From: Alphaproteobacteria bacterium
GTDB taxonomy: Bacteria > Pseudomonadota > Alphaproteobacteria > Thalassobaculales > Thalassobaculaceae
Reading direction: 5' to 3'
Length of the DNA stretch: 35,241 nucleotides
Assembly: GCA_024742605.1 (NCBI GenBank)
Contig: JANSYC010000040.1
Location: 1-35,241, forward strand
Positions 17,212 to 29,109 of the stretch are shown here, piece by piece (the first letter of the stretch is position 1; every line of letters starts with the position of its first letter). Position numbers and translations under genes: made by a program. Under the pieces are notes generated by a model. It saw only the letters and a program-made list of their open reading frames with translations. It was not told the DNA's origin and searched no databases.

Positions 17212-18627
17212 CTATTCCCCCGCCTGCTGGTGCGCCTTCGGTCCACGCGGATCCGTCACCGGCGTGATACCCGCGGTACGGATCGGACCTTCGATGTCCC
17301 AGTCCTGATCGCGTCTCGGCGATTTCGACATCATCCTCAAAAGATAAAAAGTCCCGGCGCCGAACACGGCGAAATAGACGAACACAAAGGCGATCAGAGA
17401 GGCCCGCACCGCCGGGGCCTCGATCGGGGCCACCGACTCCGCGGTCGTCAACAGCCCGTAGACCGTATAGGGCTGCCGTCCGACCTCGGTCGTGATCCAG
17501 CCGGCCAGCACGGCGATGAAACCGCTCGGCGCCATCAGAACGCTCGCCCGCAGGAGCCACCGATTGTCGTAGAGCGTGCCCTTGTTCCGGCACCACAGGC
17601 TCCAGATCCCCAGTGCGGCCATCAGCATGCCGATCCCGACCATCACGCGGAAACTGTAGAAGATGATATCCGCCGGCGGCCGCTCGGCCTTCGGCCAGTC
17701 CTTCAGCCCCTTGATTTCGCCGTCCAATGTATGGGTCAGGATCAGTGAGCCGAGATAGGGGATCTCGATCTTGTTGCGAACCACTTCCTCGCCGTCGTCC
17801 GGAAAACCGAACAGGATCAGCGGCGCGCCCTTCTGAGTGTCGTAGTGCCCTTCCATAGCAGCGACCTTGGCCGGCTGATATTCTAGTGTGTTGAGCCCGT
17901 GCATGTCGCCGGCCACGATCTGGATCGGCGCGACGATGGCCGCCATCCAGAGCGCCATCGAGAACATCGTCCGGGCCTGCCGATTGCCCCGGTCCCGCAA
18001 CAGGTGCCAGGCCCCGACACCACCCACTACGAACGCCGTCGTCAGATAGGCTGCCAGCACCATGTGCGCGAGCCGGTACGGAAAGGAGGGGTTGAAGACG
18101 ACCGCGAACCAGTCCTCGGCCACGAACTGGCCCACCTCGTTGATCGTGTGCCCGGTGGGAGTGTGCATCCAGGAGTTCACCGACAGGATCCAGAAGGCCG
18201 AAAACAGGGTTCCGACCGCCACCATCAGGGTCGCGAGGAAATGCAGTCTGGGCCCGACCCGGTTGAGGCCGAACAGCATGATCCCCAGGAAGCCGGCTTC
18301 GAGGAAAAACGCGCTCAGAACCTCGTAGCCCATCAGCGGACCCAGAATCGGCCCCGTCTTGTCCGCGAATACGCTCCAATTGGTACCGAACTGGTAACTC
18401 ATCACGATGCCGGAGACGACGCCCATGCCGAAGGCCACCGCGAAGATCTTCTTCCAGTATTCGAACAGGGTGAAATAGGCCTGGTCGCGGGTCCACAGCC
18501 ACAATCCCTCCAGCACCGCGAGGTAACTCGCCAGGCCGATGGAGAAGGCAGGGAAAATGATGTGGAACGAGACCGTGAACGCAAATTGTATACGCGCGAG
18601 CAAGATGGCATCGGCGTTTTCAATCAT
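17212..18627 (-). CDS. cioA: Cytochrome bd-type (cyanide-insensitive) quinol oxidase subunit I
   Basis: The haem-bearing subunit that oxidises quinol and reduces O2 without pumping protons, 471 residues. Candidate haem ligands are His22 (SFHIIFPAFSIGL), His188 (PYRLAHM) and Met329 (FRVMVG). Conserved acids Glu102 and Glu110 lie in YEVLSAFFLEAGF, and GRQPYTVYG follows the quinol-side region. The loop between the helix around residue 240 and FRVMVG is short, which is typical of the CIO branch. High-affinity O2 removal would suit a phototroph whose pigment genes are oxygen-regulated, but co-regulation with the bch genes is inference. No clear Fnr box was found upstream. Confidence 0.94.
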   Translation of the reverse strand: MIENADAILLARIQFAFTVSFHIIFPAFSIGLASYLAVLEGLWLWTRDQAYFTLFEYWKKIFAVAFGMGVVSGIVMSYQFGTNWSVFADKTGPILGPLMGYEVLSAFFLEAGFLGIMLFGLNRVGPRLHFLATLMVAVGTLFSAFWILSVNSWMHTPTGHTINEVGQFVAEDWFAVVFNPSFPYRLAHMVLAAYLTTAFVVGGVGAWHLLRDRGNRQARTMFSMALWMAAIVAPIQIVAGDMHGLNTLEYQPAKVAAMEGHYDTQKGAPLILFGFPDDGEEVVRNKIEIPYLGSLILTHTLDGEIKGLKDWPKAERPPADIIFYSFRVMVGIGMLMAALGIWSLWCRNKGTLYDNRWLLRASVLMAPSGFIAVLAGWITTEVGRQPYTVYGLLTTAESVAPIEAPAVRASLIAFVFVYFAVFGAGTFYLLRMMSKSPRRDQDWDIEGPIRTAGITPVTDPRGPKAHQQAGE

Positions 18628-18679: not shown

Positions 18680-18746
18680 ACCTGTCGCGACTCGATCGCG
18701 CGGTGGGACCTTAAGCCGCGATCGTCAGCGACGCAGCCGCATCGCC
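18680..18746. repeat. Imperfect direct repeat, copy A
   Basis: ACCTGTCGCGA is followed about 20 bp later by CTTAAGCCGC and a further 26 matched positions. It pairs with copy B (19911-19975): 11 of 11 bases match in the first block and about 30 of 36 in the second, with an unalignable middle of equal length within one base. On the minus strand copy A ends in RLRR-stop and copy B in RWRR-stop. Confidence 0.65.
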
Positions 18747-18785
18747 CTATTCAGCTCGTGGAACCGCAGAACTCGGAGATCGGCC

Positions 18786-19745
18786 TTAAAGGTTCTTATC
18801 CGCAACCATCACCAAGCTACCGAAATACTCCACGCCATTCACCTGGGCCGCGCCGAGCCGCGAAAACTCGACCGTTTCAAAATATGGGCGAAACAGGTCT
18901 TCCAAGCTGAGCTGCGTAAAGAAGTTGCAATGCGTCGCTTCGAGAAGATGCCAGGGAAGAATGCCGGCGGAGAAGCACGTGGGAATGCACTCGATGTCCG
19001 GCACCGTCACGATCAGCCGGTTCAAAGACAGTCTCGACAGCTCCGCCGCTGCCTCCTTATAGGTCGGTATGTGTTCCAGGACCTCGGAGCACAGGACCGT
19101 GTGCGCAGGACGGACCGGGCTCGGAAAAGCCCCATCGTAGAGCACGACATGATCGACCGCCTGTGGGCGCAATGCATCCCGGATCCGGGCCTCATCGAGT
19201 TCCAGTCCGGTCACGGAGACACCCAAGCGAGCCAACTCCGAAACCATGGCGCCGGAGCCGCATCCGAAGTCGACCACATCACCTGCTCGCTGCATCAGGA
19301 GAGCGAGAACTTCCGGGTTGAACCTGGGATCCGGCGGGCCGGAGCCGTATATGTGCTCCCGCCGCAAGGGCTCCGAAACTCGGAAAATATGATCGTATGC
19401 CGGTTTCTGAAACCTGAACTCGCCAAGTGCGAGTTCGTGCTTTTCATCCAACTCCAGGCAAATGTCGCGCAAAACGACAGCGTACAGTTCTTCCGGAATC
19501 AGACAGTCGATACAAAGCCCCGACTGACCGACACCAACCGACTCATTGATCGCAACATCGCTTCGGCTGTATCGAAAGACTTTATGTAAGACCAGATCAC
19601 GGCCATCGACCGAGACCCGTGGACACTGAATTTTCCCGGTTTCGTGTTCGGACCACCCACGCAGCCTGACGATGCCTGAAACACTCAACTCGCATGAATC
19701 AATAAACCCGCCAGAAAAACCACCGGCGACATCAATCTTCTGCAC
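18786..19745 (-). CDS. Class I SAM-dependent methyltransferase of unknown substrate
   Basis: A 319-residue protein with a GTG start at 19745, 8 nt after GGAG. Residues 1-120 form a beta-rich domain of a kind that precedes glycosyltransferase or methyltransferase domains in surface-glycan proteins, though I do not recognise it firmly. The Rossmann methyltransferase domain starts at VVDFGCGSG (157-165, SAM-binding motif I). Then come GLELDE (acid loop for the ribose) and CSEVLEHIP (motif IV region). The C-terminal block PWHLLEATHCNFFTQLSLEDL resembles methyltransferases acting on lipids or glycans. The gene stands alone, is visibly richer in A+T than its neighbours and lies between two repeat copies. 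Acquisition by transfer is inferred. The substrate is unknown. Confidence 0.8.
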   Translation of the reverse strand: MQKIDVAGGFSGGFIDSCELSVSGIVRLRGWSEHETGKIQCPRVSVDGRDLVLHKVFRYSRSDVAINESVGVGQSGLCIDCLIPEELYAVVLRDICLELDEKHELALGEFRFQKPAYDHIFRVSEPLRREHIYGSGPPDPRFNPEVLALLMQRAGDVVDFGCGSGAMVSELARLGVSVTGLELDEARIRDALRPQAVDHVVLYDGAFPSPVRPAHTVLCSEVLEHIPTYKEAAAELSRLSLNRLIVTVPDIECIPTCFSAGILPWHLLEATHCNFFTQLSLEDLFRPYFETVEFSRLGAAQVNGVEYFGSLVMVADKNL

Positions 19746-19792
19746 GGCTTAACTCCATGATGTTCGCGCGATCCGCCAGGGTATTCCGGGAA

Positions 19793-19816
19793 TGTCTTAC
19801 AAATCCGCGCAAGACA
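19793..19816. promoter_or_regulatory. Inverted repeat TGTCTT-N12-AAGACA upstream of the methyltransferase
   Basis: Perfect 6-bp arms lie about 50-70 bp upstream of the GTG start, overlapping a small palindrome ATTCC-G-GGAAT (19783-19793). It fits an operator position. No regulator is known. Confidence 0.4.
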
Positions 19817-19883
19817 AACCCCGCAGCGTAACTCTGTCGGGCGGGTTGTGGGACAAGGTATTGAGGGTCAAGCAGCGAAAGTC

Positions 19884-19895
19884 ACCGTCGACGGT
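19884..19895. other. Perfect palindrome ACCGTCGACGGT
   Basis: A self-complementary 12-mer between the methyltransferase promoter region and the end of the small membrane gene. With no T-tract it is not a convincing terminator. Its role is unknown. Confidence 0.3.
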
Positions 19896-19910
19896 CGTGA
19901 ACACGGCTGA

Positions 19911-19975
19911 ACCTGTCGCGAACGACGTGCCGACCGAATCTTAAGCCGCAATTGTCAGCGGCGCCACCGCACCGC
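19911..19975. repeat. Imperfect direct repeat, copy B (3' end of the small membrane gene)
   Basis: Partner of copy A at 18680-18746. Copy B includes the last codons and stop (TGA, plus-strand 19955-19957) of the 89-residue membrane protein and its 3' flank, so it is likely the original. Copy A is then a displaced duplicate on the far side of the methyltransferase gene. Confidence 0.65.
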
Positions 19976-20224
19976 TAGATCGAAGACATGCGCCATCAGC
20001 GCCACCGTCGCGCCGAGGGCGACCCAGATCCACTCCGCGCCCGTCAACGCGGCAGCCAGCGCGCCCCAGAGCCCCGCGCCCGCCAGCAGCATGGGAAGCG
20101 CGTTCCGGGGCGACACCCCGCGCCCGGTGACTCGGAAGTACAGGCTGAGTGCGACGAATTCGGCCGCCAAGACGGCGAGCGCCACCCATGCAATGGTTCC
20201 GCTTGCGACGAGGGATTGGAGCAT
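19955..20224 (-). CDS. Small membrane protein of unknown function downstream of tspO
   Basis: An 89-residue protein with three predicted membrane segments, at about residues 9-29, 44-63 and 67-83 (for example IAWVALAVLAAEFVALSLYF). It ends in a basic tail, RWRR. ATG 20224 lies 4 bases after the tspO stop, so the two are almost certainly translated from one message. No family is recognised. Its position as last gene after bchP and tspO suggests a supporting membrane role at the edge of the photosynthesis cluster. Its 3' end is duplicated beyond the methyltransferase gene. An overlapping frame at 19941-20189 has biased composition and no membrane pattern and was rejected. Confidence 0.75.
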   Translation of the reverse strand: MLQSLVASGTIAWVALAVLAAEFVALSLYFRVTGRGVSPRNALPMLLAGAGLWGALAAALTGAEWIWVALGATVALMAHVFDLAVRWRR

Positions 20225-20228
20225 TCGG

Positions 20229-20717
20229 TTATCCGAACGTGTTCAGCTGGACCACCGCCGCGTTCAACGCCGCAGCGAAGGTGACCCAGACGAGGTAGGG
20301 CACCAGCAGCCAGGCCGCCGCCCTCACCGGACGCCACAGCAGCACGATCAGAAGCAGCACCGAAGACCAGAGCAGCCCCACTTCCAACAGCGCCAGATCC
20401 GGACGCTGCGCCAGAAAGAACAACGCACTCCAGCCGACATTGAACAGGGCGTTCAGGCCGAACAGGCAGACCATCCCGGCCCGCGCCCGGGGATGGGCCA
20501 GCCCCCGCCAGGCTTTCGCGCCCGACAGGGCGGCCAGCGCGAAGATCAGGGTCCACGCCGGAGCGAAGGCCCAATCCGGCGGCTTCCACGCAGGCTGTTC
20601 GAGGCTGTAATACCAGGGACCCAGCTGGGTCATGCTGCCGCCCAGCATTGCCACAACGAACGCGCACAGTCCCGCGACGACAATCGGGTTCCGGAGAAAA
20701 CGCCAGCGCGGGCTCAT
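20229..20717 (-). CDS. tspO: TspO/MBR (CrtK) tryptophan-rich sensory protein
   Basis: A five-helix outer-membrane or envelope protein that binds tetrapyrroles and tunes photosynthesis gene expression in Rhodobacter; 162 residues. Hallmarks are WYYSLEQPAWKPPDWAF near residues 35-51 and LNALFNVGWSALFF near 89-102. PYLVWVTFAAALNAAV near the end carries the conserved Trp and Asn. It starts 21 bases after bchP and ends 4 bases before the small membrane gene. In Rhodobacter the homologue sits among the crt genes; here it is in a bchP-linked operon, which ties it to late bacteriochlorophyll steps. Signalling of porphyrin or oxygen status is known for the family and inferred here. Confidence 0.93.
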   Translation of the reverse strand: MSPRWRFLRNPIVVAGLCAFVVAMLGGSMTQLGPWYYSLEQPAWKPPDWAFAPAWTLIFALAALSGAKAWRGLAHPRARAGMVCLFGLNALFNVGWSALFFLAQRPDLALLEVGLLWSSVLLLIVLLWRPVRAAAWLLVPYLVWVTFAAALNAAVVQLNTFG

Positions 20718-20738: not shown

Positions 20739-21941
20739 TTATCCCCTATCGGGACGGACGATACCGAGCAGATGTCCCATATCCTTGAAGAAGATCCGGA
20801 TATGGGCCATCGGATCGGCCTTCACCAGACGTTTGTTCATATAGGCGTCCCAGGTCAACCGCTGGACATCCGGATCCGCGCACATGGTCACGAAGCGCTC
20901 TCGGCGCTTGTCGCTGCTGTACCAGAAATACTGCATGATCCCCAGCACCCAGAACACCTTGCCGCACTCCTTCATGAAGTGCTTGCGGGCAAGTTTCAGC
21001 GCGCTGGCCTGTCCGGTCTCCAGAAAGACCTCGACCGCCTCCGCCGCACGCCGCCCCCCGAGCATGGCATAGTAGATGCCCTCGCCCGAAGCCGGCGCGA
21101 CCACACCGGAGGAATCGCCCGCGAGCACGACATTCCGTCCGTCGTCCCAGCGCTTCAACGGTTTGAGCGGAATCGGCGCCCCCTCGACCCGCACGGTCTC
21201 CGCCTTGTCGAGTCCGGTTGCAGCCCGCAGATCGCTCACCGCGCCTTTCAGGGAGAACCCCTTGTTGGCGCTGCCGACCCCGATGCTCGCGTGCTCGCCA
21301 TGGGGAAAGACCCAGGCGTAGAAGTCCGGCGACAGCTTGCCCTGGTAATAGACATCCGCCCGTGTGCCGTCGTAGTCGGCGGCCTGCTGGACCGGCGGCG
21401 ACTTGATGATCTCGTGATAGGCGAAGACGCAGGGGATCTTGTCCGCGCCCTTGACCGACTGCCGTGCGACTTTCGAGCGCGCGCCATCCGCCCCGATGAT
21501 GGAGGTGGCCCGGACCGCCACCGGCGCATCGGTCTTGGAGGCGCCCTTGGGCCGGTAGTAAAGCGTGACCCGGCCGTCGGACTCGCGCTCGAACCGCTCG
21601 AAACTGCCGGTCCGACGCTCCGCACCGTAGGCGGCGGCGCGTTCCCGCAGCCACTCATCGAAATGTTCCCGATCCACCATGCCGACAAACCCGCCGTCGA
21701 TCGGCATGTCCACCTGATTGTCGGATGGCGAAATCATCCGGGCCGAGCTCGCCCGCGCCACCAGCAGGGACAGCGGAATATCGAAATCCCGGATCAGCCG
21801 GGGCGGGATGGCGCCGCCGCAGGGTTTGATCCGGCCCGCCTTGTCCAGCAGGAGGACGGAACGCCCGGACTGGGCGAGATCCGTTGCGGCGGTCGCCCCT
21901 GCGGGTCCGCCACCGACCACGATCACATCAAACTCATCCAT
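20739..21941 (-). CDS. bchP: Geranylgeranyl diphosphate/bacteriochlorophyll reductase BchP
   Basis: A flavoprotein that reduces the geranylgeranyl tail of bacteriochlorophyll to phytyl, the last step of pigment synthesis; 400 residues. The N-terminal FAD-binding motif is VIVVGGGPAGATAATDLA (residues 6-23). It is followed by GRIKPCGGAIPPRLI, typical of the geranylgeranyl reductase family. A second FAD block, VVLAGDSSGVVAPASGEGI, is near residue 270, and the C-terminal region MQYFWYSSDKRRERFV is also family-like. It lies 46 bases after the MFS gene and 21 bases before tspO. The order bchG-MFS-bchP is conserved in purple bacteria, which supports BchP over the related plant-type or archaeal reductases. 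Confidence 0.95.
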   Translation of the reverse strand: MDEFDVIVVGGGPAGATAATDLAQSGRSVLLLDKAGRIKPCGGAIPPRLIRDFDIPLSLLVARASSARMISPSDNQVDMPIDGGFVGMVDREHFDEWLRERAAAYGAERRTGSFERFERESDGRVTLYYRPKGASKTDAPVAVRATSIIGADGARSKVARQSVKGADKIPCVFAYHEIIKSPPVQQAADYDGTRADVYYQGKLSPDFYAWVFPHGEHASIGVGSANKGFSLKGAVSDLRAATGLDKAETVRVEGAPIPLKPLKRWDDGRNVVLAGDSSGVVAPASGEGIYYAMLGGRRAAEAVEVFLETGQASALKLARKHFMKECGKVFWVLGIMQYFWYSSDKRRERFVTMCADPDVQRLTWDAYMNKRLVKADPMAHIRIFFKDMGHLLGIVRPDRG

Positions 21942-24352: not shown

Positions 24353-25792
24353 TCAATCCGCATCGCCGTCCAAATCCCCAAGCCCGTAGCGCCGCAATTT
24401 AACGTACAGACTCTGTCGGCTGAGACCGAGCATTTCGGCGGCCGAGGCCCGGTTGTCGCCGGTCAGCTCCAAAGCCGCCTCAATGCACAACCGCTCAATC
24501 ATATCAGTCGTCTCACGCACAAGTTCCTTGAGCGAGACCCGCCCCACCAACTGTGTCAGCTGTTCGACGGAACGGGGCAAAGCCGCGTCATTGGCGGTCA
24601 GCATGGGCATACGGCGCGCGACGCCCCGAACGGTAAAGCCGAAGCAGGCCTCATCCCCTGACGGAACCGAGACCGCGGAAACCTCGACCTCTTCGTCGCT
24701 GCCGAATTCGCCCCGCATGACCGTCGCGAAATGCCGGATCGCGCCGTGTTCCCGAAGATTGGCGACCATCACGCTGAAATCGACTCCGGTCCGACCCATC
24801 CACCGATCCAGCGGCTCTCCGCGCAGCTGATTCTCCGTGGCCATCTGAGCCAGGTCGAGAAACGCGGTGTTGGCAGCCAGAACACGCATGTCGGGGCCGG
24901 TGACCACGAAACCGTCCGGCAGTCCTTCGACCACCTTCAGCAGTTTGGCGCCGGTCTCGGACAGGTCACGAGCGCTGTTCTGGTTGGCACCGGGTCCGGA
25001 CAGGCGGACGAGAAAATAGGCTGCCGACCCCTGCCGGAACAGCGAAGCGGAGACATTGCTCGCCTCGGGTTGTTTTTTCATACGCGCTGGCACGTCCAAG
25101 GCGCGGCCGGTGCTGCGCAGGCCGGCCAGCATCCCCTGAACGGTGGGATAGGCGTCCGCCTCGAAAAAGTCCCGCAGGTCGCGGCCGACGATAACGCCGG
25201 CATCACCGCCCAGACGTTCGATTGCCGCCGGATTCGCTTCCATCACTTTGTTCGTGGTGGCGTCGACAATCATCACCGACTCGGACGCGATCTGGAACAA
25301 CAGGCGATAACGGGTCTCTTCGTGCCGCAGGCGCGCGTATTCGCGCTCCATCGACTGCTGAGCCTCGACCAGCCGGCGCTGCAAAGCCGCCATGGAGCGA
25401 AGATCCCTGCCGAGTGCGATCATCATCCCACCGGACCCCATGCGGACGGTGGAATACCGGATCGGAATATCGGGGCCGTTGGTGGTCGGATGATTGACCT
25501 GACGCCAGCGGGGCGCCTCGTCGGATATTGCATCCGCCATCATCTCGGAGACCTTCGACCTGCTTTCCTCGGTAACGGTCTCAAGCCATGTCTGTCCGCG
25601 CCAAGCCAGATAGCCTTCCTTCTCGAAGTCCTCACTCCCGAACGAAAGATCGATCACCCGACCGTCCTCGTCGAGAACAAGGGCAATATCGGCAGAGGCC
25701 GCGATCAATCTCGCAGCGATATCCGGAGTCATCCCCGAGAACGTGCTCTCGGGAGCCTGAAATCGCGTTATCGCCTGAGAAGAGGCCGGCAT
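24353..25792 (-). CDS. ppsR: PpsR/CrtJ, PAS-domain repressor of photosynthesis genes
   Basis: The redox- and light-responsive repressor of bch, crt and puc genes, 479 residues. It contains an N-terminal PAS region (about 20-130), a Gln-rich linker helix (LQRRLVEAQQSMEREYARLR, 137-156), two PAS domains (about 158-265 and 280-390) and a Fis-type helix-turn-helix (DNRASAAEMLGLSRQSLYVK, 446-465). The HTH cysteine is present (Cys436, in RLCIEAAL, equivalent to Cys424 of R. sphaeroides as recalled). The only other cysteine is Cys383. At the expected place of the second redox cysteine (FLVRL, 260-264) there is Val262. A disulphide switch as proposed for Rhodobacter is therefore doubtful here. The gene is adjacent to and co-oriented with aerR, its antirepressor. 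Confidence 0.95.
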   Translation of the reverse strand: MPASSQAITRFQAPESTFSGMTPDIAARLIAASADIALVLDEDGRVIDLSFGSEDFEKEGYLAWRGQTWLETVTEESRSKVSEMMADAISDEAPRWRQVNHPTTNGPDIPIRYSTVRMGSGGMMIALGRDLRSMAALQRRLVEAQQSMEREYARLRHEETRYRLLFQIASESVMIVDATTNKVMEANPAAIERLGGDAGVIVGRDLRDFFEADAYPTVQGMLAGLRSTGRALDVPARMKKQPEASNVSASLFRQGSAAYFLVRLSGPGANQNSARDLSETGAKLLKVVEGLPDGFVVTGPDMRVLAANTAFLDLAQMATENQLRGEPLDRWMGRTGVDFSVMVANLREHGAIRHFATVMRGEFGSDEEVEVSAVSVPSGDEACFGFTVRGVARRMPMLTANDAALPRSVEQLTQLVGRVSLKELVRETTDMIERLCIEAALELTGDNRASAAEMLGLSRQSLYVKLRRYGLGDLDGDAD

Positions 25793-25856
25793 ACGTTCGC
25801 TACTCCAAAACTTTTAAGACTCCGGACAATCAGACGTCCCTAATCCAAAGCCATCA

Positions 25857-25875
25857 ACGACACATCAAGTCGTTC
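25857..25875. promoter_or_regulatory. Inverted repeat AACGAC-N7-GTCGTT between aerR and ppsR
   Basis: Perfect 6-bp arms lie in the 126-bp gap upstream of ppsR, about 65-83 bp before its start. It could be an operator for ppsR autoregulation or a hairpin after aerR. It does not match the TGT-N12-ACR boxes. Confidence 0.35.
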
Positions 25876-25918
25876 CGTTCATATCGCCAAGCCCGGCAGA
25901 CCAGACACGCAAATCCCT

Positions 25919-26890
25919 TTATTCGGCCACCTGCGTCTGGCGGGTAATCCGATCCGCCTCAACGACGGCTTGAAGTCCGTCCACAGCCAAAGCGTCTGCA
26001 CCAACCGTTTCAGCCAAGCCCGGCTGCCCCACAAATGCAGGACCTCCTACCAATATACCCATACTTGGGTTACGGGAACCTTTACGCAAGGCGGTTATCA
26101 ACGGTCTCAACATGTCGGCTTGTTCCTCGGTTCCCATGGTGAAACCGACCGCCGAATACCACTCCCGTTTTACAACCTCCAGGAGACCGTCCGTCGACCC
26201 GGCCGCCTCAATGTGGACATCCCAACCGGCCCGACGGAAGAAATCCTCCACCATCAGGAGCCCGAACGTATGCTGTTCGCCGGGAATGGCGGCGAGAAAG
26301 ATACGGCGATTCTCGTCGACCCGCCGCGGTATCTTTTCGCCCAAAGGGTTCGATTCCCGCAGCACCTGCTGCAGCATCCCGAGGCCGAGCGTCACCTCGG
26401 TAAAATCGCGGCGATCTTCCTTCCAATCCTCACCGAGACGGCGCGCGGCGGGCTGCATGACATTCAGCAGCAGGTCTTCCCAACCCATTCCGTCCCGCAA
26501 CAGACCGTCGACATACGCCCGGGCGGTCGAAATATCTTTCTCGATCAGAATGGTATTGAATGCACCGATATCCATCTCGTCGATCCCGTCATGTAACCGA
26601 TTCGAACGAACACGCCTCTCGGCCTCGGACCTCTCCGGCTCGGCGGCCACGTCATCTGGTGCACATCCAGGGACGGCCAAACTAGGCGCATTCGGCCCGC
26701 TATGCATCAACATCAAACGAGGGATGATTTCCGCTTCGATGGTTCGCACCAATTGAGTGCGCCTTGTGGCAGGCGATTCGATGCCGGCCAAGGCCTCGAA
26801 AATGTCAGAGCTGAAAGGCCGTTCCGTCGCCACGTCCGGCATCGGCGCCGAATAATCGGTATGTGTCTGATTGTGATCTGACAAAGACAT
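25919..26890 (-). CDS. aerR: AerR/PpaA, B12-binding antirepressor of PpsR
   Basis: A cobalamin-binding regulator that, in Rhodobacter, binds B12 under light and counteracts PpsR/CrtJ; 323 residues from ATG 26890. That start is preferred because GGGGGGA lies 4-5 nt upstream; ATG 26905 would add five residues. The helical B12-cap region is around residues 100-185 (MGWEDLLLNVMQPAARRLGEDW). The B12-binding Rossmann fold follows, with the axial-ligand motif GEQHTFG (His207). Later come GFTMGTEEQ and ILVGGPAFVG, typical of the domain. A long N-terminal extension (about 95 residues) is not recognised. PpaA and AerR are names for close homologues and cannot be separated by eye. Confidence 0.92.
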   Translation of the reverse strand: MSLSDHNQTHTDYSAPMPDVATERPFSSDIFEALAGIESPATRRTQLVRTIEAEIIPRLMLMHSGPNAPSLAVPGCAPDDVAAEPERSEAERRVRSNRLHDGIDEMDIGAFNTILIEKDISTARAYVDGLLRDGMGWEDLLLNVMQPAARRLGEDWKEDRRDFTEVTLGLGMLQQVLRESNPLGEKIPRRVDENRRIFLAAIPGEQHTFGLLMVEDFFRRAGWDVHIEAAGSTDGLLEVVKREWYSAVGFTMGTEEQADMLRPLITALRKGSRNPSMGILVGGPAFVGQPGLAETVGADALAVDGLQAVVEADRITRQTQVAE

Positions 26891-27155
26891 GTGTCCCCCC
26901 CGCATCGTAATCCTGAAGGGAGGGCATCACACCTCCAGGAGCGCCATTGTCTCAGGCTTCCCTGTCTGTAAGCCGCGGACCATTCGAATTTAAACTCAGG
27001 GATGCACGTGTCCGCTGCCTCTTCAGACATTGAATTTCAACCGGTCCGGCAGCCTAGTCTCGTCTTATTGCTGGTCCACGCGGCCTTTTTTATGCCGCTA
27101 TGACCCAGCTCTTAGCCTGAAATACAGTACACCCAGAAATTCCCCGCGCCAAGTG

Positions 27156-27185
27156 TTGTAAATTTTAGTTTACGTCGTGTATGGT
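27156..27185 (+). promoter_or_regulatory. Putative bchF operon promoter
   Basis: TTGTAA (27156-27161), an 18-bp spacer and TATGGT (27180-27185) make a moderate sigma-70-type promoter. The PpsR-like box overlaps the -35 element and the second dyad the -10, so a bound repressor would block it. Start of transcription near 27192 would leave a leader of about 110 nt. Confidence 0.45.
27157..27174 (+). promoter_or_regulatory. PpsR/CrtJ-like box upstream of bchF
   Basis: TGTAAATTTTAGTTTACG is a near-perfect palindrome (TGTAAA and TTTACG arms, 6-bp centre), again TGT-N12-ACG like the two bchG boxes. Three bases downstream lies a perfect dyad, GTGTA-TGGTT-TACAC (27177-27191), which contains TGT-N7-ACA and may be a half-spaced second site. 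Confidence 0.7.
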
Positions 27186-27304
27186 TTACACATTGAGGGG
27201 GTCATCCGATCAACGGCGACCCAAAAAGCGAACCCGCAAGGGACCACAGCAGGGAGCTTTATGTTGGACAGATCTCATTTCCTTACGCGCACGGAGATTG
27301 CGCA

Positions 27305-29109
<1,805 letters not shown>

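Follow-up and report, generated by a model that had tools for sequence, protein, structure and literature searches.

The best reading of this locus is that a lineage-specific islet came in at the 3' end of a gene of the photosynthesis cluster and that the end of that gene was duplicated. Approximately 1.2 kb of DNA with one methyltransferase gene probably entered between cydA and the gene for an 89-residue protein, which we call p89, and about 66 bp at the p89 stop codon were duplicated. We see two copies of the repeat on either side of the methyltransferase gene, a single-copy empty site in a sister species, a hybrid make-up of that site, and no orthologue of the methyltransferase in the other genomes of the order examined, at the threshold used.

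Organization of the locus

The window, the whole stretch of 35,241 nucleotides that was analysed, derives from a photosynthetic bacterium. Its minus strand carries, in order, bchG, a pucC-like gene, bchP, tspO, p89, the methyltransferase gene, cydA and cydB, where bchG, pucC and cydB are presumed identities that we assign by recognition and not by family search. Below, the repeat copy nearer to cydA is the left copy, the one at p89 is the right copy, and the DNA between them is the insert. The features are as follows.

17212..18627, minus strand: cydA, cytochrome bd oxidase subunit I (Pfam PF01654, E 1.4e-167; 93% identical in the sister species)
18680..18745: left repeat copy (66 bp); the cydA side is native, the other side is the displaced p89 tail, AMRLRR-stop
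18710..18719: core block CTTAAGCCGC of the left copy, identical to that of the right copy and of the empty site
18786..19745, minus strand: methyltransferase gene, 319 aa, class I SAM (Methyltransf_23), alone in the insert
19746..19910: part of the insert upstream of the methyltransferase gene, 165 bp, G+C 0.57
19911..19975: right repeat copy (65 bp); one side of the core is displaced cydA-side sequence, the other is the native p89 3' end, AVRWRR-stop
19940..19949: core block CTTAAGCCGC of the right copy
19955..20224, minus strand: p89, 89-residue membrane-type gene, a neighbour of photosynthesis-cluster genes in relatives
20229..20717, minus strand: tspO (PF03073, E 1.4e-36)
20739..21941, minus strand: bchP, geranylgeranyl reductase, photosynthesis gene cluster (TIGR02023, 512 bits against a cut-off of 343)

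The cydA start and the left copy are 52 bp apart. The segment 18600-18679, which runs from the opening bases of cydA into its upstream DNA, is almost the same in both species (26/30 directly before the repeat, with few differences elsewhere) and is likely to be a cydA control region. No sigma-70-like promoter was found in 19746..19910 (0.5 expected from shuffling that stretch). Just before the methyltransferase start, at 19748-19757, part of the core block can be seen by eye in inverted form, as TTAAGCCG; this is likely a chance occurrence.

The p89 protein has no match at E<=0.001 in Pfam or NCBIfam. When sought in 98 genomes, its own included, it matched in 10 at E<=0.01, four of these weakly (E above 1e-5). 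In four genomes from other genera of the same family (G022, G026, G030 and G035; 39-47% identity) p89 adjoins bchP, and neither tspO nor cydA was matched beside it within the 9-10 kb examined, so that the ancestral state of the p89-cydA interval is unreadable there. Among the best 80 tspO loci listed from public genomes, 63 also have bchP and 14 have a p89 match (tblastn), and no cydA or methyltransferase match at E<=1e-4 was found in their flanks, some of which are short. In photosynthesis gene clusters of both Alpha- and Betaproteobacteria, relatives of p89 come after tspO or bchP, and p89 is, as judged from its sequence and neighbourhoods, an unnamed conserved photosynthesis-cluster protein. 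We found no literature on this locus among titles and the beginnings of abstracts, which is no proof of absence.

Similarity of the two repeat copies

The right copy consists of the p89 3' end together with the DNA downstream of it, and the left copy holds a displaced tail. A first-pass annotation of the window had described two stretches of about 66 bp that share two blocks at equal spacing, one of them being the tail of p89 (RWRR-stop) and the other a displaced tail (RLRR-stop). Both tails are present as described, reading AVRWRR-stop and AMRLRR-stop, and the likeness is borne out by the shuffling tests given below; the spacing between the blocks is nearly equal, at 19 nt in one copy and 18 nt in the other. 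The 11-bp block ACCTGTCGCGA is exact in both window copies, as is the 10-bp block CTTAAGCCGC, which is followed by 20/26 like positions that include the last p89 codons and the stop. The likeness ends where the tail ends (20/26 inside, 10/26 beyond). Over the whole copies 46 of 65 gap-free columns are alike. In the middle stretch between the blocks the MAFFT alignment has 5 of 18 gap-free columns alike, which is chance level, and the same stretch fares better in a pairwise alignment with three gaps. Mismatches are clustered, as all 13 of those in the first 39 gap-free columns lie within the middle 18 (hypergeometric 1e-6, the stretch having been picked on inspection).

The first-pass annotation had allowed that the similarity might be no better than that of shuffled sequence. 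The local alignment score of the two copies is 29, which was reached by none of 2000 dinucleotide-shuffled pairs and by none of 300 shuffled probes aligned to the whole window (these scored at most 21), and the best other place in the window scores 15. When the left copy was used in a DNA search of the whole genome, with matches accepted up to E 10, the right copy was absent from the matches; so weak a similarity escapes such a search, and the case for it is carried by the local tests.

An empty site in the sister species

G001 is the sole other genome of the genus examined, and in it we find what the first-pass annotation had predicted, an empty site where the repeat is single and the methyltransferase is missing. 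Its locus (L023) has tspO, p89 and cydAB in the same order, with identities of 79% for p89, 94% for tspO, 95% for the bchP end, 93% for cydA and 97% for cydB, and the p89-cydA interval spans about 100 bp with one copy of the repeat. The assembly, of about 950 contigs, has 87% completeness and 5% contamination, and the empty site lies within one contig; as G001 is incomplete and contaminated, absence of the methyltransferase elsewhere in that genome is uncertain.

The block CTTAAGCCGC is identical at 10/10 positions in the left copy, the right copy and the empty site. To either side of it the G001 site resembles a different window copy: on the cydA side it is like the left copy at 19/30 positions vs 12/29 for the right copy, and on the gene side it is like the right copy at 22/26 positions vs 18/26 for the left. 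The agreement is sharper in the flanks beyond the repeat (26/30 vs 13/30 and 22/26 vs 11/26).

Age and direction of the change

The native halves, as we use the term, are the left copy on its cydA side and the right copy on its gene side; the other two are the displaced halves. On the cydA side, states unique to one sequence number 2 in the native half, 6 in G001 and 9 in the displaced half, with 2 positions all different, 1 gap and 10 the same; on the gene side the corresponding numbers are 1, 3 and 5, with 17 the same. The displaced halves have thus changed most and the native window halves least, by small numbers. At 4 positions of the 11-bp block G001 differs from a state common to both window copies.

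Synonymous divergence between the species (pS) is 0.28-0.46 for five genes, one of them a 121-codon piece, which about equals the divergence of the copies, so the duplication is old, of the order of the species split. The states in the 11-bp block lean towards a duplication after that split, with before and after separated by small numbers. As to direction, gain in the lineage of the window is favoured by the other 35 genomes of the order examined, in none of which the methyltransferase has a match at E<=1e-12, by the lack of a full-length match in 60 relatives, and by the lower GC3 of the gene; a genus represented by two genomes allows a preference here and no proof.

The methyltransferase

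The methyltransferase gene has a G+C of 0.566 and a GC3 of 0.653, as against a GC3 of 0.78-0.86 in seven neighbouring ORFs and a G+C of 0.645 for the window. It is therefore A+T-richer than its neighbours, as had been noticed at the outset, but is not unique in this, since G+C falls to the same level or below it in windows whose starts lie at about 24.9-27.1 kb. This second zone of low G+C, at about 24900-27700, equals the insert in this respect, with 1220-bp windows reaching 0.557.

At its C terminus the protein carries a class I methyltransferase domain (Methyltransf_23, 55.5 bits, cut-off 27), and it has an N-terminal part that is common to relatives near glycan genes. A match to the methyltransferase domain at E<=0.001 is present in 38 of the 60 relatives, the best being 42% over 87 residues, with no full-length orthologue as judged from these partial matches. 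At E<=1e-15 a relative was found in 1 of 384 other genomes of the class (G091, 36% identity, residues 13-314) and in 0 of 397 other genomes of the phylum, in searches of genomes sampled from larger groups with at most five candidates scored per genome. Two Rhizobium tumorigenes plasmids carry a relative with 32% and 31% identity at 97% coverage. Full-length relatives are thus rare in the sequences searched. One match was found in viral contigs (33% over residues 150-236) and none in the phage sequences searched. Among solved structures the methyltransferase domain alone matches, with a best E of 5e-6, and a single-sequence structure prediction gave a mean pLDDT of 31.6, too low for use. The next best match in the genome itself lies within a 626-aa ORF that is convergent with a tyrosine-recombinase gene near a contig end; the region concerned is L146 983-4177, on contig C116.

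The plasmid and G091 proteins share the same two-part build over nearly the full length at 31-36% identity, and a three-way alignment shows that the methyltransferase motif region and PWHLLE-TH-NFFT are kept. These relatives lie near glycan genes, whereas the window gene stands alone between tspO-p89 and cydAB. On the one of the two plasmids that was examined, the gene is near pseudaminic acid genes and transposases; the neighbours of the G091 gene are presumably a large glycosyltransferase and a polysaccharide-type ABC transporter ATPase, identified by recognition and not by family search. By analogy with these neighbourhoods, the protein probably methylates a surface glycan or a precursor of one.

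Searches for further copies of the repeat

The first-pass annotation had proposed a search for the repeat beside other cargo genes, and here the outcome was negative. No second site of this kind was found in the genome, either with the left copy as a DNA probe, which is insensitive to copies as diverged as the right one, or with pattern searches, which are strict. The exact block pair has no further occurrence in its own genome, a single one in G001, at the empty site, and none in the 59 other relatives searched. A third ACCTGTCGCGA in the genome (C171) is not accompanied by the second block within the 601 bases read. The DNA probe also gave 16-bp matches on C116 and C57, which are short and fall within ORFs, and the pattern search gave one three-mismatch match, on C101.

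Among the 80 tspO loci, 54 have an ORF of 70-130 aa after tspO and 26 do not. A hotspot behind this ORF was considered and rejected, as in 51 of the 54 loci the tail repeat is no better than in that locus's own 30 shuffles; three loci (L046, L052 and L059) exceed their shuffles by one point, and the window itself scores 24 against a shuffle maximum of 19. The test is loose, in that p89 is matched in 14 of the 80 loci, so that many of these ORFs are not p89, and some of the downstream stretches are short. No clear repeat was found in the 54 loci.

Discussion

How the islet came to be inserted can be proposed only tentatively, and the chances of the following mechanism fall somewhat short of even. 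A small element carrying one methyltransferase gene, and since then without a recombinase, would have integrated between p89 and cydA. Recombination would have taken place at or near CTTAAGCCGC, just beyond the p89 stop, with the use of a recombinase, and the element would have brought along an imperfect copy of the p89 end, as integrative elements at gene ends do. The insert has no recombinase gene, its one gene of size being the methyltransferase, and there is no tyrosine-recombinase match on the contig of the window; the genome has 18 matches to tyrosine-recombinase domains, 16 of them above the cut-off, which makes a trans-acting enzyme conceivable. In favour of an attachment site are also the hybrid empty site, the identical 10-bp block just past the p89 stop and the imperfect gene end on the far side. 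Counting against an element of this kind are the lack of a second site in the genome searches above and of a hotspot in the tspO loci; in addition, a plain duplication that later decayed would also give imperfect likeness on both sides of the block, and the 4 positions of the 11-bp block shared against G001 suit a duplication after the split better than an element with an independently evolved site. Of the earlier proposal of an insertion with duplication of a gene end, as seen for site-specific or recombination-mediated cargo, the first part is supported by the empty site in G001 and by the lack of a full-length orthologue in the 60 relatives, and the second has found neither a recombinase in the insert nor a second instance.

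An explanation that calls for no enzyme is the repair of a staggered break, or a like aberrant event, in which the target of about 66 bp was copied to both sides of captured foreign DNA and the copies then diverged. There are 9 states in which the window copies agree and G001 differs, and the few unique states of the native halves (2 and 1), beside those of G001 (6 and 3) and the many of the displaced halves (9 and 5), would be expected if the duplication followed the split and the displaced halves lost constraint. The ends of the insert are likewise in keeping with it, as a TTCAGC-type inverted match noticed by eye is at chance level (504 of 2000 shuffles as good) and was rejected as a terminal repeat. 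However, decay has not been even, the left arm between the blocks being near chance while both blocks are perfect, so this explanation needs selection on the blocks; to our knowledge, moreover, transposon target duplications are all shorter than 66 bp. We regard it as possible but rather unlikely. More doubtful still is that the copies and the methyltransferase are older than both species and that in G001 the copies recombined at the block, with loss of the gene. The hybrid G001 site is what such a deletion would leave, gain and loss giving the same structure, and the left-right divergence is about as large as the synonymous divergence between the species. Against this, the genome of the window is alone among the 36 of the order in having a match to the gene at E<=1e-12, the states of the 11-bp block common to the window copies suit a later duplication, and the methyltransferase differs from its neighbours in composition.

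The likeness could instead be functional, a transcript end or regulatory element belonging to each transcription unit and not a duplicated target, and the retention of TGTCGCG and CTTAAGCCGC in all three copies at near-constant spacing is what one would look for in such an element. A hairpin or terminator in the repeat was nevertheless rejected, since the three copies fold as RNA no better than shuffled sequence does (z -0.26, -0.16 and +0.95) and a terminator scan is empty in the repeats, with three sites in the methyltransferase gene (2.0 expected). The displaced tail also keeps a decayed gene end, needless for a regulator, and the rarity of the exact block pair (see above) again speaks against a general element; we consider this very improbable. 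We give even less credence to the idea that the 66-bp stretch is a two-block recombination site at which an undescribed recombinase, acting in trans, moves single-gene cassettes in the manner of an integron without an integron.

The insertion with a duplicated gene end can be set against known systems. Transposon insertions with target-site duplication are alike in having cargo between direct repeats of the target and a single-copy empty site, and differ in that the repeat here is longer and there are no terminal inverted repeats and no transposase. Integron gene cassettes are alike in having one gene with a stretch of the size of a recombination site on its 3' side, but no copy contains GTTRRRY or RYYYAAC, the motifs as we know them, and a search of the genome for the integron integrase (TIGR02249) gave 0 matches above the cut-off and 7 below. 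The transposon and integron readings therefore fail on the features tested. A further class is that of integrative elements and genomic islets whose insertion at a gene's 3' end leaves direct repeats of that end (attL and attR). The present locus resembles them in that the repeats include the last codons and the stop, an identical block is present in both ends and in the empty site, cargo lies between, the host gene is whole, and a relative has an empty site with a single attachment site; it differs in having no integrase, in its size of about 1.2 kb with one gene, in its diverged repeats, in its location at a protein gene and not a tRNA gene, and in that no other cargo was seen at the same site. 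Were other cargo to occur there, a dedicated recombinase would be indicated, and only then would the locus be of greater importance. What we have is a clean case, complete with a corresponding empty site, in which one gene has joined the margin of a photosynthesis gene cluster and the target has been doubled. The reading as an old, lineage-specific gene insertion with a duplicated gene end is well supported; an event of this kind is ordinary, and nothing found here calls for a new mechanism.
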